DNA from: an uncultured Victivallales bacterium
GTDB taxonomy: Bacteria; Verrucomicrobiota; Lentisphaeria; Victivallales; UBA1829
DNA: 64,000 bases
NCBI GenBank assembly: GCA_944391115.1
Contig: CALXSJ010000001.1
Location: 191,169 to 255,168 of the forward strand
Reading direction: 5' to 3'
Part shown: positions 9,762 to 18,014 of the stretch, piece by piece
Position numbering within the stretch: position 1 is the first letter of the stretch
How the letters are laid out: each line of letters opens with the position of its first letter
Notes under the pieces: generated by a model
The model's database searches: none
Seen by the model: the letters and a program-made list of their open reading frames with translations, nothing else
Told to the model about the DNA's origin: nothing
Program-made: the position numbers and the translations under genes

Positions 9762-10085
9762 CTACTGTTTCACCAGAATCCGTGCCGCGAATTCCAGCGC
9801 GAATTTCGACAGAAACCCGAGAATCCATGAGAGCAGGACGATGATGACGGTTTCCGGGAAAAACTTTGCCGAAGTGAACTTGGCGATCAGAAGGAACATC
9901 ACCAGCAGCGACGCGAGCATTCCCCAGGGTTCGGGATGAAGCCCGAGCAGTCCGCAGATAAAGGCGATCAGGAGCATGCCTGAAAAATCACCCTGCGTTT
10001 TTGTGATTTTCAGAGCCGCCCACAGCACGCCCCCCGTGAACAGGACCTGCACACAGAATGAAAGTATTTCCCGCAGTTCCGCCAT
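9762..10085 (-). CDS. Small integral membrane protein of unknown function
   Basis: Unrecognised 107-residue protein. Three to four hydrophobic segments can be seen (about residues 10-27, 35-50, 56-70 and 76-100), joined by short loops, with a basic C-terminus ending LVKQ. There is no cysteine pair, signal cleavage site or catalytic motif. It is the last gene of the nusA-infB-rbfA-nrnA-truB run, 18 bases after the 533-residue gene, and converges on coaC. A membrane-anchored partner of the preceding protein is possible, but only position suggests it. Confidence 0.75.
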   Translation of the reverse strand: MAELREILSFCVQVLFTGGVLWAALKITKTQGDFSGMLLIAFICGLLGLHPEPWGMLASLLVMFLLIAKFTSAKFFPETVIIVLLSWILGFLSKFALEFAARILVKQ

Positions 10086-10103: not shown

Positions 10104-11705
10104 TCAATTCTGCTTCTTTTCGAGTTCTTCCATGAAGTGTTCCCAGTCCTCTTCTATGTCTCCGACACGCAGTTCCAGCATGTCGTATTCTTCCCCCTCC
10201 GGCAGAGCGGAGTCGGCGTTCAGGAGCCGGAGCGTGTTCAGGATCCGTGCATGGAAAGATTTCATCCGGTGGACGGTATGCGCGGGAATTTCCTTCCCCT
10301 GATACCGTTCCAGCAGAGAGCGGGAACACTCAATGCGCTGATCGTTGAGCTCGAGCAGACGTGTCCGCAGCGGCGTCTTGGGTTCTTCGACGACGGGGTT
10401 GAAGTGTTCGACAGCCTCCTCCCAGTTGTCCTCGACGAAATTCTGGAACGTGACTTCCTGCGCGTCGTCGACGAATTTCACTCCCATGATGTCCCGGAGT
10501 TTCCGGAAGAAGACGTCGAAGGAGTCCTGTCCGTTGGCAATGTCGTCCACAATCATTGCATAGATTTCGGTATGGCTCAGCGGCGCGTTCACTTCCTCCA
10601 GAATCGAATCGACCGAATCGAGCTTGCCGGCGGAAGCGGAGAAATCTTCGACTCGCAGTTCCCCGGATTTTGCCGGGGCGGCGGAACGGGAGTGTTCATG
10701 ACGGCAGGAACATTCCCCGTGTTCATGGGCATGTTCCGCGTTATCGCCGTGATCCGGTTCGGATTCTCCGGCGGTCGCCAGTTCGTCCACGGGGACGAGC
10801 ACCCAGTCGGCGTCGTCGCGGCGGATGGCCACGTCGCGCATCATCGCGGGATATTCATCCAGGGAGAGATACGGTTTTTTCCGCAGATCATGCCCGGCGG
10901 TGAACGCACAGAGATAGGCGTGTGCGATCTGATCGGGAATCTCCAGATATTCGCCGTAGTCTTCGCAGGTTTGAATGACGGCTTCCTCGAACTGCGTGAG
11001 GCAGGCGTCGAGCGCGGCCTTGTCCGGCAGATCGTCTTTGGAACGGTATTCCAGGGAGAAAACGCCGTTGCGCCAGTCCTCGACCGTGGCGATGACCGCA
11101 TCCCCCTCGGAGAAGTTGTTTTCTTTGTAAAACGAACCCAGATCAAAGGCGGAGACCGCCACCACCGCTTTTTCCGGGCTGGATGCGCGTTTGAGCGCCT
11201 CGTAGTTCTCGGAGGATTCCGCGACGATGCAGTCAAGCATGACGGAACGCCCGAGCAGCATGAAAGTGCGCGCGATCTGTCCGAGCTGGGCCGTGTAGGT
11301 GACGACGGGCAGTGTTCTATCCACGCCCTTTATGGAAAGGCGGTATTCATCCGCGAAAAGCTCATCGGAGCAGAAGGGGGCGAAACGCGCGCCGTAGAGC
11401 AGAATCCCGTCTTTGATTTCCAGTTTCGAGGGAAGGATTTTGATCTGCGTCCCCCGGAAGAACGGCGCGCGGTTCCAGCAGACCGCATGATGGGTGTTTG
11501 TCTTGAAGAAAATGTCCTGCCGGCTTTCCAGAATCAGTTCGACGTCGCGGACAATCCGTTCCCGCCGTTCGGTTTCCGGGAGGACGGCGTTTTTTGTCAC
11601 GAATGCGACGGCGTCGTCCACGGAAAAGGATTCCATGTGTTCCACGGACTTCAGAAATTGATTGAGAGTCTCCTCGATCACGCTTACGCTGACTGGTTCC
11701 GACAT
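10104..11705 (-). CDS. Uncharacterised acidic protein with a His/Cys-rich metal-binding-like segment
   Basis: Not recognised. The 533 residues are soluble and acidic, without signal peptide or membrane segment. Residues ~28-90 resemble a winged-helix fold by pattern (DDAVAFVTKN, then ERIVRDVELILESR and a basic strand). Residues 319-338 contain six His and two Cys (GDNAEHAHEHGECSCRHEH), probably a metal-binding linker between the N-terminal ~300 residues and a helical C-terminal half. The gene follows truB by 21 bases in a transcription/translation operon, so it is likely expressed with nusA and infB. A link to transcription or RNA metabolism is inference from operon position. The ATG has a GGAGG-type site upstream (GAAAGGAGGCC). 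Confidence 0.8.
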   Translation of the reverse strand: MSEPVSVSVIEETLNQFLKSVEHMESFSVDDAVAFVTKNAVLPETERRERIVRDVELILESRQDIFFKTNTHHAVCWNRAPFFRGTQIKILPSKLEIKDGILLYGARFAPFCSDELFADEYRLSIKGVDRTLPVVTYTAQLGQIARTFMLLGRSVMLDCIVAESSENYEALKRASSPEKAVVAVSAFDLGSFYKENNFSEGDAVIATVEDWRNGVFSLEYRSKDDLPDKAALDACLTQFEEAVIQTCEDYGEYLEIPDQIAHAYLCAFTAGHDLRKKPYLSLDEYPAMMRDVAIRRDDADWVLVPVDELATAGESEPDHGDNAEHAHEHGECSCRHEHSRSAAPAKSGELRVEDFSASAGKLDSVDSILEEVNAPLSHTEIYAMIVDDIANGQDSFDVFFRKLRDIMGVKFVDDAQEVTFQNFVEDNWEEAVEHFNPVVEEPKTPLRTRLLELNDQRIECSRSLLERYQGKEIPAHTVHRMKSFHARILNTLRLLNADSALPEGEEYDMLELRVGDIEEDWEHFMEELEKKQN

Positions 11706-11726: not shown

Positions 11727-12488
11727 TCAAAAGGTTGTAAAACGGTTCATCTGCGCAAGTTTCCTGTGCAGGAACTCGGAAATGTGGCTGCTCAAGTCAT
11801 CCTGCGTCCAGGTTTTCAGCGTTTCGACAGTCACGGCGTTTGCCAGATCGAATTCGCCGCTTTTCAGACGGTTCAGGCGGTAGAGGCAGGCCCCGCAGCC
11901 GAGCCGGGCGCCGACGTCCGCGCAGAGGGTCCGGACATAGGTTCCTTTCGAGCAGGATACGGTGAAATCGGCATAGGGCAGCGCGATTTTGTCCAGGGTG
12001 ATCGAATGAATCGTAATGGGTTTTGCCTCGCGTTCGATTTCCTGGCCTTTCCGCGCCAGTTCGTAGAGACGCTCGCCGCCTTTCTTGACGGCGGAAACCA
12101 TCGGCGGAATCTGCTCGATGTCGCCGACAAATTCCGCGAAGGTGTCCCGGAGCATCTGTTCCGTCACGAAAGAGGGATCGCTTTCCCGGAGCACCGTTCC
12201 GTCCATATCCTGCGAATCGGTTTCCTTTCCGAGGAGGATCGTCCCTTCGTAAACCTTGTCCTCGCCGCTGAATTTCTGGCTGAGTTTTGTGAATTTTCCG
12301 AGCACTACGACCAGAAGTCCGGTTGCGGCCGGATCGAGCGTTCCGCAATGTCCCACTTTCGGCACGTTGAACCGGGAGCGCACGAACGCCACGACGTCGT
12401 GACTCGTCCATTCCGCGGGTTTGTTGACAAGAAGCACGCCGCTGCGGTCGAAAATCGGGAGGCGGTGCCGGGCCGGGTTATTTCTCAT
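11727..12488 (-). CDS. truB: tRNA pseudouridine-55 synthase
   Basis: Makes pseudouridine 55 in the T-loop of tRNAs. The 253 residues start with VLLVNKPAEWTSHDV and carry the catalytic motif GHCGTLDPAATG with the nucleophile at D52, then QKFSGEDKVYEG and the CSKGTYVRTLCADVG block. The C-terminal PUA-like part is short, as in shorter TruB proteins. It overlaps nrnA by 11 bases and continues the classic nusA-infB-rbfA-(nrnA)-truB order. Confidence 0.96.
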   Translation of the reverse strand: MRNNPARHRLPIFDRSGVLLVNKPAEWTSHDVVAFVRSRFNVPKVGHCGTLDPAATGLLVVVLGKFTKLSQKFSGEDKVYEGTILLGKETDSQDMDGTVLRESDPSFVTEQMLRDTFAEFVGDIEQIPPMVSAVKKGGERLYELARKGQEIEREAKPITIHSITLDKIALPYADFTVSCSKGTYVRTLCADVGARLGCGACLYRLNRLKSGEFDLANAVTVETLKTWTQDDLSSHISEFLHRKLAQMNRFTTF

Positions 12489-13476
12489 TGAGTTCCATCT
12501 CCACGTTGTTTGCTAAAATCTGTTCCGCTTCGCCGATCGAGGGCGCGTCAATGGAGCATCCCGCCGCCATCTCGTGACCGCCGCCGTTCAGACGGCGCGC
12601 GATTCTGCCGACGGAAACACATCCTGATTTGGAGCGGAGCGAAACCTTGAAGCCTTCCTTGTCCTTGCGGATCACGGCGGCGACGGCAACTCCGTCAATT
12701 GCGCGCAGAGCCTCAATTACCTGTTCGGTATTGCGCAGATCCACACCATATTTTTCGAGCAGAGCCGGATCCAGATAAAACCATGCGAATCTGCCGCCGA
12801 AAGCCTTTTTCAGATGGTTGCAGAGAAGATCCGCCTCAAAGCGCGCCATGTTTTCCTGCTTGGAAAGGAAGCAGTTCCGGATGATGTGCGTGCGGTCCGC
12901 GCCCAGTTCCTGAAGCCGCGCAGCCGCGCGCAGCGCTTCGGGCGTGGTGTTGTCAAAACGGAAGCATCCGGTATCCGTTGTGATGCCGAGCAGCAGCAGC
13001 GTTGCGGAAACCGGGCTGATCATCAGGTTCGCCTCCCGGGCAATGGAAAGCACGATTTCCGCCGTCGAGCTTGCCGTCGGAACCACGTAGCTGGCATCTC
13101 CGTAACGTTCATTGTCCGGATGGTGGTCGATATTCAGGCAGGGGATCGGGATGCCTTCCTGCCTGATGCAGGGGGCGGAGACCCGCATCCGGGTCGAGGC
13201 GTCCAGCGTAATCAGATGCGAATAGCATTCCACTCCCAGCGTCGTGATGGAGGTGATGAGCCCGCTCGGAACAAAATCCTGGTACATGTCCGGCACGGCT
13301 TCCGGAATCAGCGCGTCTACAAAATAACCGTTTTCACGCAGAATGAAGTACATGCCGCAGAGCGAGCCGATCGCATCCCCGTCGGGACGCTCGTGCGTCA
13401 TCAGGAGAATCCGTCCTTTCCCGTGCAGCTGCCCCAGACGTTTTTTCAGTTCGGAAAGCGTGATGTCATTGCTCAT
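12478..13476 (-). CDS. nrnA: DHH-family bifunctional nanoRNase/pAp phosphatase
   Basis: Degrades 2-5-mer RNAs and dephosphorylates pAp in organisms lacking Orn. The 332 residues show the DHH superfamily motifs: THERPDGDAIGS at about 26-37, LITLDAST, the DHH triad in LNIDHHPDNERYGD, GITTDTGCFRFDNT, and a DHHA1 domain with GGGHEMAAGCSI near the end. The start codon overlaps the rbfA stop region by 11 bases, and its own end overlaps truB. This position between rbfA and truB is standard for nrnA in many bacteria. Confidence 0.94.
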   Translation of the reverse strand: MSNDITLSELKKRLGQLHGKGRILLMTHERPDGDAIGSLCGMYFILRENGYFVDALIPEAVPDMYQDFVPSGLITSITTLGVECYSHLITLDASTRMRVSAPCIRQEGIPIPCLNIDHHPDNERYGDASYVVPTASSTAEIVLSIAREANLMISPVSATLLLLGITTDTGCFRFDNTTPEALRAAARLQELGADRTHIIRNCFLSKQENMARFEADLLCNHLKKAFGGRFAWFYLDPALLEKYGVDLRNTEQVIEALRAIDGVAVAAVIRKDKEGFKVSLRSKSGCVSVGRIARRLNGGGHEMAAGCSIDAPSIGEAEQILANNVEMELNEK

Positions 13477-13825
13477 TTTCTTCCAGTTCCCGGATCAGAG
13501 AAAGCACTTTGTCGCCTTCTTCGAGGTTGGTGTCATGAATGAAGTGGAGCACCGGCGTGTATTTCAGGATCACGCGCCGGGAGACATTGTGCTGAATTTC
13601 CGTCCGGAGCTTGTTGAGTGTCCGGAAGATTTCCGCGGTCCGTTCCTTCCCCGCACCGAACACGCTGATATACACCGCGGCATTCCGGAGCGATTCGGAC
13701 GCGTGAACCTTTGTCACGGATACCAGCGTATCTCCTCCGCCGACTCCGTGTTTTTCTATGATATCTGCAATCTCGCGCTTCAGAATTTCATTGACGCGCG
13801 CGATTCTGTCATGGGGCTGGGCCAT
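13466..13825 (-). CDS. rbfA: 30S ribosome-binding factor A
   Basis: Helps 16S rRNA 5'-end maturation and cold adaptation by binding the free 30S subunit. The 119 residues form the KH-like fold: RVNEILKREIADIIEK at the start, VSVTKVHASESLRNAAVYISV in pieces in the middle, and VILKYTPVLHFIHDTNLEEGD at the end. A GTG lies two codons earlier, but the ATG at 13825 has GGAGG seven bases upstream. It follows infB after 111 bases that contain two stem-loops. Confidence 0.95.
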   Translation of the reverse strand: MAQPHDRIARVNEILKREIADIIEKHGVGGGDTLVSVTKVHASESLRNAAVYISVFGAGKERTAEIFRTLNKLRTEIQHNVSRRVILKYTPVLHFIHDTNLEEGDKVLSLIRELEENEQ

Positions 13826-13936
13826 TTGCACACCTCCGTTTCATGCATCTTCCGGAAACACCCTCCGGAAAGGGGAGAGCATCCGCCGGGCGTTTTCCTC
13901 AGACATGCGCCGGCGGACGACGGTTCGGCGGAACAG
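13826..13936 (-). other. infB-rbfA intercistronic stem-loops
   Basis: Two inverted repeats lie in this gap. One pairs TCCGCCGG at 13882-13889 with CCGGCGGA at 13910-13917, extended by CG pairs past a one-base bulge. The other pairs TTCCGG with CCGGAA around 13853-13872. Neither is followed by a T run on the minus strand, so they look like RNA-processing or stability elements rather than a full terminator. Confidence 0.5.
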
Positions 13937-15973
13937 TCAGAGTGTCGCTTTTCTCAGTTCGATTTCATAGAACTGGATCACGTCGCCGACATCGAAGTCG
14001 AGGAAGTTGTCCAGTTTGATTCCGCATTCCATGCCCTGGCGCACCTCCTTGACATCGTCCTGGAAGCGCCGGAGCGAGCGGACCTCGCCGTTGAAGATCA
14101 GTTCGCCTTTCCGGAACACGCGCGACTTGCTGCCGACCTTGACGACACCCTTGTCCACCATGCAACCGCAGATTTTCGGTCCTCTGGAAAGTTCGAAGAT
14201 TTTCAGAATGTGCGCCACGCCCAGTTCCTTTTCGCGTTTGTCCGGCTCCAGACGGCCTGCCATCGCATCCTTGATATCCTCCAGCAGTTCATAAATGATG
14301 CTGTAGAGGCGGATTTCGACATTTTCCTTTTTCGCGAGGTCGTTCACTCCGGGATTGACCCGGACATGGAAGCCGATTACGATGGCGTCCGAAGAGGCCG
14401 CGAGCAGAACATCGTTTTCCGTGATCGCGCCGACTCCCGCGTGAAGCACTTCCACGCTGATCTTGTCCGAGGGCAGTTTCTTGAGGGATTCCACAATCGC
14501 CTCGGAAGAGCCGCAGACGTCGGTTTTGACCACGACTTTCAGAGTGTTGCGCTTGCCGTTCTCCATCTGGGAAAAGAGATCGTCGAGCGTCATGCCGCCG
14601 CCTTTTCCGGAAAGCGCCTCGACGCGTTTGCTCGCGCTTCTGGCCTCCCCGATTTCCTTGGCCTCTTTCTCGCTTTTGCAGACAACGAGTTTCGTTCCCG
14701 CATCCGGCACGCCGCTCAATCCGACGATTTTCACCGGCGTGCTCGGTCCCGCGGATTTGACGCGCTGTCCGCGGTGATCGATCAGCCCCTTGACTTTTCC
14801 GTAATACTCGCCGCAGAGAATCGGATCTCCGACATGAAGCGTGCCGTTCTTGACAACGATGCTTGCCGTGGGGCCGTATCCCTGTTCCAGCTGGGACTCC
14901 AGGACAAACGCCTCGGCGGGACGTTTCGGATTGCCTTTGAGTTCGAGCATTTCCGCTTCAAGAAGAATCCGCTCCAGCAGGTCGTCAATGCCCTGGCCGG
15001 TTTTCGCGGAGACCTTGACGACTCCGACTGTTCCGCCCCAGTCCTCCGGCATGAGTCCGTGCTGCTGCATGTGCAGAAGCACCTTGTCCGGGTTTGCGTT
15101 CGGCAGATCGATCTTGTTCATTGCCACAATGATCGGCACGTTCGCGGCTTTTGCATGATTCATGGCTTCGATCGTCTGCGGCATGAAGCCGTCGTCCGCG
15201 GCGACGACCAGCACCACAATATCCGTCACATTTGCGCCGCGGGCGCGCATCGCGGTGAACGCCTCATGACCGGGAGTGTCGACAAACGTCACGGATTTGC
15301 CTCCGCAGTGGGCGATCGACGCGCCGATGTGCTGTGTGATGCCTCCGGCTTCCCCCGCGGCGACGCGCGTTTTGCGGATCGCATCCTGCAGCGAGGTTTT
15401 GCCATGGTCGACATGCCCCATGAACGTCACGATCGGCTGGCGCGTCACAAGGTCTTTCGGGTTGTCCTTGAATTCCATTTCCTCGGGGGCATCCGGAGCC
15501 GGATCTTCGGATTCCTTCTGCAGGTGCTCATCTTTCTCGCGTTTGTCGATGACCAGATTGAAGCCCATTTTCGCAGCAAGTTCAATCGCGACGGCCGGAT
15601 CCAGCATCTGGTTGATGCTGGCAAGCACGTTCATCATCATGAGATTGGTTATCACCTCGTTCGGACGTCTGCCGAGCGCTTCGGCCAGCGTTTTGACGAG
15701 AATCGGTCCCTTGATATGAACTTCCTGCCCGCCTGACGTCTGAGAGGCGGGAGCGTCTTTCGCCTTTCCTCCGCTTCTGGGAGCGCGGCCCTTTTTCGCC
15801 ATCAGTTCATCGAAATAGGATTTCACGAGTTCCGCCGCGTCCGGAGGAATTTCCGAGTTTGCGTTTTTCACATCGTCGCCGAATCCCTGCGACTCAAGCT
15901 CTTTGAGGATCTCCTTGACGGAGACGCCGTATTTGTCCGCAAGCGTTTTGACTTTGATACTTTTTGTTCCCAT
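13937..15973 (-). CDS. infB: Translation initiation factor IF-2
   Basis: GTPase that places initiator tRNA on the 30S subunit and promotes subunit joining. The 678 residues are at the short end for IF-2: a brief N-terminal region (IF2_N helix [18 protein letters not shown], a basic linker, a second IF2_N copy [18 protein letters not shown]) precedes the G domain with [22 protein letters not shown] and AMNKIDLP. Domains II, 3 and IV follow, ending with the conserved [15 protein letters not shown]. It lies 74 bases after nusA in the same operon. Confidence 0.97.
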
Positions 15974-16047: not shown

Positions 16048-17325
16048 TTACTGCTGCTTCCCGTCGGAAGCCCCGTCCGATGTCTGATCGGCTTTCGCCA
16101 GTTTTTCCGCGATCGCATTCACGGTCTCCCCGTCGATTCCCTGAATTGCGGAGATGTCGGCAATGCCTGCTGTTTTCAGGCCTTCCAGCGTCAGGTAACC
16201 GTTGTTGACAAGGAGCTCCGCCTTTTCCGGCGCTATGCCAAGCACGGCGGAGAGCTGCGCGATGCACTGCGTTTTCTTTTCCTCGAAGGATTCCTCCCGC
16301 ACATCGTCGTCCGTAATGAAATTGATGTTCCAGCCGATCAGTTTCTGGGCAAGGCGGACATTCTGCGCCTTTTTCCCGAATGCCAGGCGGGAGTTTTCGG
16401 AATTGACCCGGATTGTCAGCATCCTGCGCTCCTCGTCGACGCTGATCGACTCGAGTTTTGCCGGATGCAGCGCATTTGCCGCATAGGTTTTGATGTCATC
16501 CTCGTAGCGGATGATGTCCACGCGTTCATTGCCCAGTTCGCTCGTGATGTTGCGGACGCGCATGCCGCGCATGCCGACGCATGCGCCGACGGGGTCGATG
16601 CGCGGATCGTTGCTGCGGACCGCGATTTTCGTGCGCATTCCGGCTTCGCGGGCGATTCCCGCGATTTCCACCACGCCGTCGTGGATTTCGGAGACTTCGC
16701 GCTCGAAAAGTTTCCGTACGAATCCCGGATTCGAGCGGGAGAGGATCAGGCTCGGGCCGGAGACCAGGGTGTCCACCTTGACCAGCAGCGCATTGATGCG
16801 TTCGCCTACCATGTACTGTTCCCCCGGGACCTTGTCTTTCGCGGCGATGATGCCTTCGGATTTCTGGAGGTCCACGATGATCGCTCCGGCTTCGATCCGT
16901 TTCACGACGCCGTTGACGATTTCGCCCACTTTTTCGTCATATTCCTCCTTGACGATCGCTTTCTCCGCCTTGCGGAGCTGCTGAAGAATCGCCTGGCGTG
17001 CGGTCTGCGCCGCGATGCGTCCGAAGTTCTTGGGCGTCACTTCCCAGTCGATCACATCGCCGAGTTTGGCGTCCGGATATTTTTCCTTCGCCTTTTCGAT
17101 TGTGATCTGGTCGTTGTTCGGAAAGGTGTCCACGACTTCCAGTTTCGCCCACGCCTTGATCTCTCCGGAGTGGCGGTCCAGCTTCACCGCAAGATTGGAC
17201 GCGGGATGAATGCTTTTGCGCGATGCCGTCAGAATCGCCTTTTCGACGGCGTCCACAAGCTGCTCCTTGCTGATTCCCCGTTCCTGTTCGATATACTCAA
17301 GAGTTGCCAGAAGTTCACTGTTCAT
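16048..17325 (-). CDS. nusA: Transcription termination/antitermination factor NusA
   Basis: Binds RNA polymerase and nascent RNA to modulate pausing, termination and antitermination. The 425 residues show the N-terminal RNAP-binding domain (1-130), S1 domain (~132-200), two KH domains (~205-345, with VGACVGMRGMRVRNI) and one helix-hairpin-helix acidic repeat (~375-410); a second repeat as in E. coli is absent. The ATG at 17325 is chosen because GGAGG precedes it by 8 bases and family proteins start MNSELL. The usual upstream rimP is missing; instead there is a leader with an intrinsic terminator. Confidence 0.96.
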   Translation of the reverse strand: MNSELLATLEYIEQERGISKEQLVDAVEKAILTASRKSIHPASNLAVKLDRHSGEIKAWAKLEVVDTFPNNDQITIEKAKEKYPDAKLGDVIDWEVTPKNFGRIAAQTARQAILQQLRKAEKAIVKEEYDEKVGEIVNGVVKRIEAGAIIVDLQKSEGIIAAKDKVPGEQYMVGERINALLVKVDTLVSGPSLILSRSNPGFVRKLFEREVSEIHDGVVEIAGIAREAGMRTKIAVRSNDPRIDPVGACVGMRGMRVRNITSELGNERVDIIRYEDDIKTYAANALHPAKLESISVDEERRMLTIRVNSENSRLAFGKKAQNVRLAQKLIGWNINFITDDDVREESFEEKKTQCIAQLSAVLGIAPEKAELLVNNGYLTLEGLKTAGIADISAIQGIDGETVNAIAEKLAKADQTSDGASDGKQQ

Positions 17326-17462
17326 AATTCCCGCCTCCAGGCTGTTAAAGTTTTTTGATCCGGGCGATGCCAAAAAATAAGGCGGGTCTTTTGGCGAAAC
17401 CCGCCTGATTCTCCCCGCGTTCAGCCGTGCCGGGGACAGGCAACCAATAAATTACAGGTAAT
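17326..17462 (-). promoter_or_regulatory. nusA leader with attenuator-like terminator/SD-sequestering hairpins
   Basis: The ~130-base leader holds a GC-rich hairpin at 17381-17406, read on the minus strand as AGGCGGGT (17406-17399), an 11-base loop, and ACCCGCC (17387-17381), followed by TTATTTTTT: an intrinsic terminator before the first gene. The 5' arm AGGCGGG recurs exactly at the ribosome binding site (17336-17330, within GGAGGCGGG), so the terminator 3' arm could instead pair with and mask the Shine-Dalgarno. A preceding CCCCG/CGGGG pair (~17420-17442) may form another stem. The pairing is visible; regulation by NusA itself is inferred from the autoregulation known in other bacteria. 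Confidence 0.65.
17381..17406 (-). terminator. Intrinsic terminator in the nusA leader
   Basis: Seven GC-rich pairs (GGCGGGT with ACCCGCC) closed by a short loop and followed on the minus strand by TTATTTTTT. It sits downstream of the promoter at 17463-17491 and upstream of nusA, where it would attenuate the whole operon. Confidence 0.7.
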
Positions 17463-17491
17463 AATCTACATCCTCTTCCATTCTTCTTCAA
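17463..17491 (-). promoter_or_regulatory. Promoter of the nusA operon
   Basis: TTGAAG (17491-17486), 17-base spacer, TAGATT (17468-17463), reading leftward. The predicted transcript starts near 17456 and has a leader of about 130 bases before the nusA ATG. Confidence 0.55.
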
Positions 17492-17945: not shown

Positions 17946-17977
17946 GCTGCCGCAGTTTTTTTTCTGTGTCTTCCGGA

Positions 17978-18014
17978 AACTCCGCATCCGCAGGGTGCGG
18001 AGTTTTTTCTCTTT
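17978..18014 (+). terminator. Intrinsic terminator after rpsT
   Basis: ACTCCGCA (17979-17986) pairs with TGCGGAGT (17996-18003) around a nine-base loop, followed by TTTTTCTCTTTT. Confidence 0.85.

Follow-up and report, generated by a model that had tools for sequence, protein, structure and literature searches.

We found, directly in front of nusA in the 64,000-nucleotide stretch of DNA analysed here (the window), an intrinsic terminator that shows nusA-specific conservation across the phylum and compensatory changes in its stem, and that is kept in a phylum without detectable RimP. It is probable that this leader is a rimP-leader-type attenuator and that NusA-stimulated termination within it controls NusA's own operon. 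The terminator would belong to an ancient attenuator family, either moved to nusA or left in front of it, and retained there though its namesake rimP was not found in the phylum. Transcription would begin some 130 nt 5' of nusA, with a large share of the transcripts stopping at the hairpin and U-tract. Polymerase-bound NusA would favour formation of the hairpin and termination, and therefore abundant NusA would shut its own operon while scarce NusA would let the polymerase through.

Layout of the leader and operon

The features of the leader and operon are given in Table 1. The gene order is nusA-infB-rbfA-DHH-truB followed by the genes for the 533-aa and 107-aa proteins, with rpsT divergent upstream, and the gene spacing suggests that nusA through the 107-aa gene are carried on one transcript. 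The promoter-like TTGAAG-N17-TAGATT (17491-17463, minus strand) lies 138-166 nt 5' of nusA and predicts a transcription start near 17456; with a looser expression, a TTGA...TA...T pair was retrieved in 11 further leaders of the family. The terminator hairpin (arms AGGCGGGTTT/AGACCCGCCT, 17406-17380) folds at -15.6 kcal/mol, compared with -6.5 +/- 2.2 for its own shuffles. Its 3' arm is 54 nt from the nusA ATG (17325) in the window, and this distance is 20-168 nt over all leader sets. An open reading frame (17620-17345), considered as a leader peptide, spans the leader but has its start upstream of the promoter. Since no plausible minus-strand gene end is found just upstream and rpsT is divergent, the hairpin is not an ordinary 3'-end terminator, and its assignment to an upstream gene was ruled out by this gene layout. 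A separate strong terminator-like hairpin is found just past rpsT (17975-18007, plus strand).

Table 1. Positions in the window of the nusA operon genes and of the elements of its leader.
Feature	Position	Strand	Remarks
nusA	16048..17325	-	NusA_N, S1 and KH_5 above cut-offs; HHH_5 just below its cut-off
infB (IF2)	13937..15973	-	Pfam
rbfA	13466..13831	-	Pfam
DHH/DHHA1 phosphoesterase	12478..13476	-	Pfam; presumably NrnA-like
truB	11727..12488	-	Pfam
533-aa protein, end of nusA operon	10104..11705	-	without Pfam match
107-aa protein, end of nusA operon	9762..10085	-	without Pfam match
-35-like TTGAAG	17486..17491	-	TTGAAG-N17-TA.ATT in 4/4 genomes of the genus
-10-like TAGATT	17463..17468	-	17-nt spacer from TTGAAG; promoter predicted
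Proposed antiterminator 5' strand GTTGCCTG (GUUGCCUG)	17437..17444	-	invariant in 6/6 leaders, two genera
Variable inner hairpin TCCCCG/CGGGGA	17412..17436	-	pairs in 6/6 despite sequence change
Proposed antiterminator 3' strand CAGGCGG	17401..17407	-	overlaps terminator 5' arm
Intrinsic terminator hairpin AGGCGGGTTTCGCCAAAAGACCCGCCT	17380..17406	-	rimP-leader type GGG...CCC; 10 pairs, GC-rich
U-tract TATTTTTT	17372..17379	-	directly 3' of terminator hairpin
Shine-Dalgarno GGAGG	17338-17334	-	
Second AGGCGGG	17330..17336	-	overlaps Shine-Dalgarno; as heptamer, not conserved

Conservation of the terminator in front of nusA

A strict motif was used, namely G[C/T]GGG...CCC[A/G]C with five or more T among the next 9 bases. 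Of the 125 leaders counted in the order Victivallales, 88 carry this hairpin and U-tract before nusA (33 of 47 genera), compared with 4 of 6250 shuffles. The same was seen in 9 of 13 leaders from other orders of the class, these 13 being picked from the rows listed (shuffles 1/650), and in 44 of the 77 leaders taken from the phylum's other classes (shuffles 11/3850), giving a shuffle background of 0.06-0.29%. The order leaders derive from 137 genomes, of which 130 had a detected NusA; 126 leaders were extracted and 125 were long enough for counting, and in the leader set the nusA start of one genome (G007) is badly placed. The phylum, which for the wider genome set we take to be Verrucomicrobiota, was sampled by 80 chosen genomes, roughly one per genus with several already-positive families left out, and the 77 above the NusA cut-off were used. 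Eighteen leaders first found via the motif were excluded from these three counts and from the 141 leaders used for the stem, and the 17 among these with the strict motif are part of the 158-leader Shine-Dalgarno comparison below.

Over the 141 leaders, which were not chosen by motif, the second pair of the stem was U-G in 66, U-A in 41 and C-G in 34, and the outer pairs interchange between A-U, G-C and G-U. As judged from these sequences the second pair of the terminator stem changes compensatorily; 4/5 core G-C/Y-R pairs are set by the search itself and it is the free positions that are informative. In a genome-wide pattern search of the order, matches were present in 53 of 137 genomes, and at 25 of the 30 loci fetched nusA lay directly downstream; the element is therefore largely nusA-specific in the order. 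The class and phylum pattern listings contain many matches away from nusA. Among 20 hand-chosen places from them 15 were directly before nusA, and among 30 further loci fetched automatically 3 were, all from the class of the window, with the remainder looking like chance. The first-pass annotation had proposed that a premature terminator ahead of nusA would control transcription of nusA-infB and of the genes that follow. The terminator is indeed present and conserved over the order and the phylum, and such control fits a conserved leader terminator.

The strict motif was absent from 37 of the 125 order leaders. Another terminator-like hairpin was found in 28 of these 37, but also in 36 of 111 shuffles, and some of the 37 hold close variants of the motif (for example AAGTGGG...ATCCGCTT in one genus and GGTGGGC...GTCCACTT in another). 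One genus of the window's family (g5, family f1) seems to have lost the motif in most members. Its leaders (e.g. L024, L028, L031) have in common AGGGGCCTGTGGGGTT followed by TTTTGCATTTG, and many carry a GC-rich hairpin near the Shine-Dalgarno instead.

A candidate antiterminator in two genera

In the genus of the window and its sister genus, we tentatively propose that GUUGCCUG pairs with CAGGCGG to form an antiterminator capped by the variable hairpin, with some factor picking the fold; this is a possibility that we would put somewhat below even. The 5' strand GTTGCCTG is unchanged in the six leaders of the two genera while its flanks vary, and a hairpin is found between the two strands in all six despite changed sequences (stems CCCCG/CGGGG, CTCCG/CGGAG, TGCCG/CGGCA and TCCC/GGGA). 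The terminator 5' arm, CAGG[C/T]GGG, follows 3' of this hairpin in each. TTGCCTG at most 70 nt before the hairpin is found in genus 1 (four leaders), genus 3 (two leaders) and one other of 152. Furthermore, when the growing transcript was folded, the antiterminator (GCCUG/CAGGC stem) was the minimum-energy structure at lengths 54-66 (-19.3 to -22.9), and the terminator together with the 5' hairpin was the minimum-energy structure at lengths 78-84 (-30.8 to -31.4). However, the complementarity to the GC-rich arm is not unusual by chance in five of the six leaders (rank 0.11-0.48, with 0.007 in the sixth), one sister-genus member (G005) is without the strict motif, and the two stems, which would be mutually exclusive, are predicted in six leaders only, four of them close to each other. 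Across the phylum the complement to the terminator arm was no stronger for the leader's own sequence than for swapped ones (-6.89 compared with -6.86, none beyond swapped), and a phylum-wide antiterminator was thereby ruled out. The six-leader arrangement may be the anatomy of a terminator/antiterminator switch, and we offer it as a new lead. Such a switch would add to control by NusA and is compatible with it.

Another possible switch was observed in one genus of a different family (g30, family f4; e.g. L101, L102, L103), where AGTCCC past the U-tract can pair with GGGAC of the terminator 5' arm.

The effector of the attenuator

RimP_N (PF02576) was detected in 0/22 and 0/387 genomes of the phylum, while 10 of 14 control genomes were positive. 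RimP has apparently been lost phylum-wide or is extremely diverged. This makes RimP an improbable effector in the phylum. As the terminator is kept where no RimP was found, the leader element is tied to nusA, which suggests an effector other than RimP. The Rfam family RF01770 (rimP), which presumably represents the complex rimP-leader of Gammaproteobacteria, gave no match at the leader among the matches listed. Those matches lie away from the leader at 32.8 bits or below, and none of 22 genomes was above the 47-bit cut-off. No known Rfam element was identified in the window, the only match near the leader being a chance one, and none was found in the leaders of ten loci; in two of these loci, matches outside the leader were to a tRNA and, weakly and below threshold, to a riboswitch.

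Some findings stand against an attenuator under NusA control. At -15.6 kcal/mol the hairpin of the window is a strong one, whereas terminators that depend on NusA would be expected to be weak. In addition, the strict motif is missing from the 37 order leaders described above, and RF01770 did not match.

It is unlikely that the same attenuator responds not to NusA but to another product or state, such as IF2, a ribosomal protein, ribosome coupling or NusG. The arm sequence is conserved as a binding site would be, and IF2 and RbfA are among the products of the operon, two points that suit such an effector; however, RimP was not found in the phylum, and the literature, in the portions available, favours NusA (PMC12288461, PMC4448216, PMC2965389). 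Less credit still can be given to a fixed, unregulated partial terminator that merely sets the level of the operon. No sensor is visible in most leaders, as this would predict, but phylum-wide conservation of the arms is unusual for plain terminators, and the available text of the 2010 survey reports the signature in no other terminator (PMC2965389).

The repeat at the Shine-Dalgarno

The first-pass annotation had also described the order promoter, GC-rich terminator and Shine-Dalgarno with an exact repeat of the terminator arm, and this layout is found as described, with AGGCGGG at 17406-17400 and again at 17336-17330 (minus strand). Its further proposal, that the 3' arm can also lock translation by pairing with the Shine-Dalgarno, is not supported, and the repeat, whose conservation in relatives it had suggested checking, is not conserved as a heptamer. 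The full AGGCGGG was present in the window genome only, with the hexamer AGGCGG in three congeners. The window holds 16 occurrences of the heptamer against 11.7 +/- 3.3 expected, and the copy hardly exceeds chance, unlike the terminator. Within 4-11 nt before an ATG, GGAGGCGG occurs at 88 places genome-wide compared with 18 for the reversed pattern, and is therefore a common form of Shine-Dalgarno in the window genome; by row count 12 of the 88 read GGAGGCGGG. When the leader is folded freely, the pairing probability of the 3' arm is 0.96 with the 5' arm and 0.01 with the Shine-Dalgarno. Once the antiterminator was forced, pairing of the 3' arm with the Shine-Dalgarno rose to 0.97 in the window but only to 0.11-0.53 in the congeners. 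In the 158 hairpin-bearing leaders, pairing of the 3' arm with its own Shine-Dalgarno came to -5.49 kcal/mol compared with -5.75 +/- 0.25 for Shine-Dalgarno regions swapped in from other genera, and 172 of 200 swaps were as good or better, showing no selection on this pairing. A dual lock, in which the 3' arm either terminates transcription through the 5' arm or blocks translation through the copy, is thus very improbable and was set aside because the Shine-Dalgarno form is common, the heptamer is confined to one genome, the pairing is no better than swapped and the 5' arm takes up the 3' arm in the free fold; it would moreover mask the Shine-Dalgarno in exactly those RNAs that read through. 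The swap comparison and the free-fold probabilities together rule out this pairing as a conserved second lock, and the heptamer copy is a coincidence of this locus, or no more than a quirk of the genus.

Implications

A phylum without detectable RimP but with the terminator before nusA is a natural experiment, and it suggests that NusA (or nusA-infB) is the product under control and probably also the one that exerts it. The autoregulation of NusA thereby becomes testable beyond two model organisms. The covarying consensus G[U/C]GGG...CCC[G/A]C could be used for a covariance model, Rfam having matched none of the leaders scanned. A more speculative proposal, which we consider conceivable but would not expect to hold in full, is that the conserved hairpin with its often-kept U-G pair serves NusA-specific recognition and tuning, is older than the phylum and goes with nusA, not with rimP, and that the genus of the window gained a riboswitch-like antiterminator which senses some signal and thereby determines how strongly the entire transcription-translation operon is expressed.

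Comparison with published systems

The rimP-leader has been described as a short terminator that precedes rimP-nusA-infB and whose stem has the conserved form GGGc...gCCC, and was the most ubiquitous attenuator of the 2010 survey (Naville & Gautheret 2010, PMC2965389). According to the portions of that paper available, it is known from Firmicutes and Gammaproteobacteria, its signature occurs in no other terminator, and in most species it has no antiterminator; NusA was considered the likeliest effector and RimP a possible one, the choice being left undecided (PMC2965389). Verrucomicrobia and Lentisphaerae go unmentioned in its main text, as far as this is available (PMC2965389), and no paper on such a nusA leader in Verrucomicrobiota was found among the titles and abstracts searched. 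The leaders of the window phylum are like the rimP-leader in having a GGG...CCC terminator stem and U-tract in a short leader, in preceding an operon with nusA and infB, in their distance to the gene start (54 nt in the window, 4-130 nt in the 2010 description) and in being mostly without an antiterminator. They differ in that rimP is not the first gene, the window element standing directly before nusA, in that the arms are extended to GYGGG/CCCRC, and in that the genus of the window adds a possible antiterminator.

In Bacillus subtilis, NusA is reportedly autoregulated via NusA-stimulated termination in its own leader (PMC12288461), and in Streptococcus agalactiae short and long transcripts arise from one start before rimP-nusA, with the stop 31 nt downstream (PMC4448216), both as given in the available parts of these reports. 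The B. subtilis leader is similar to that of the window in having an intrinsic terminator before nusA. The two differ in gene order, and the dependence on NusA that was shown in B. subtilis is what we infer here.

The complex rimP-leader of Gammaproteobacteria, as far as the available text of the 2010 paper describes it, has a CCCG...CGGG hairpin 5' of the main terminator and a possible antiterminator (PMC2965389); the window likewise has an upstream hairpin and a candidate antiterminator. The window differs in that its upstream hairpin is without a U-tract and not conserved in sequence, and in that RF01770 does not match the leader. The first-pass annotation had held that the layout is different from that in Escherichia coli. 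The difference is smaller than it supposed, since the terminator is of the published rimP-leader type, and this type also occurs in Gammaproteobacteria (PMC2965389).
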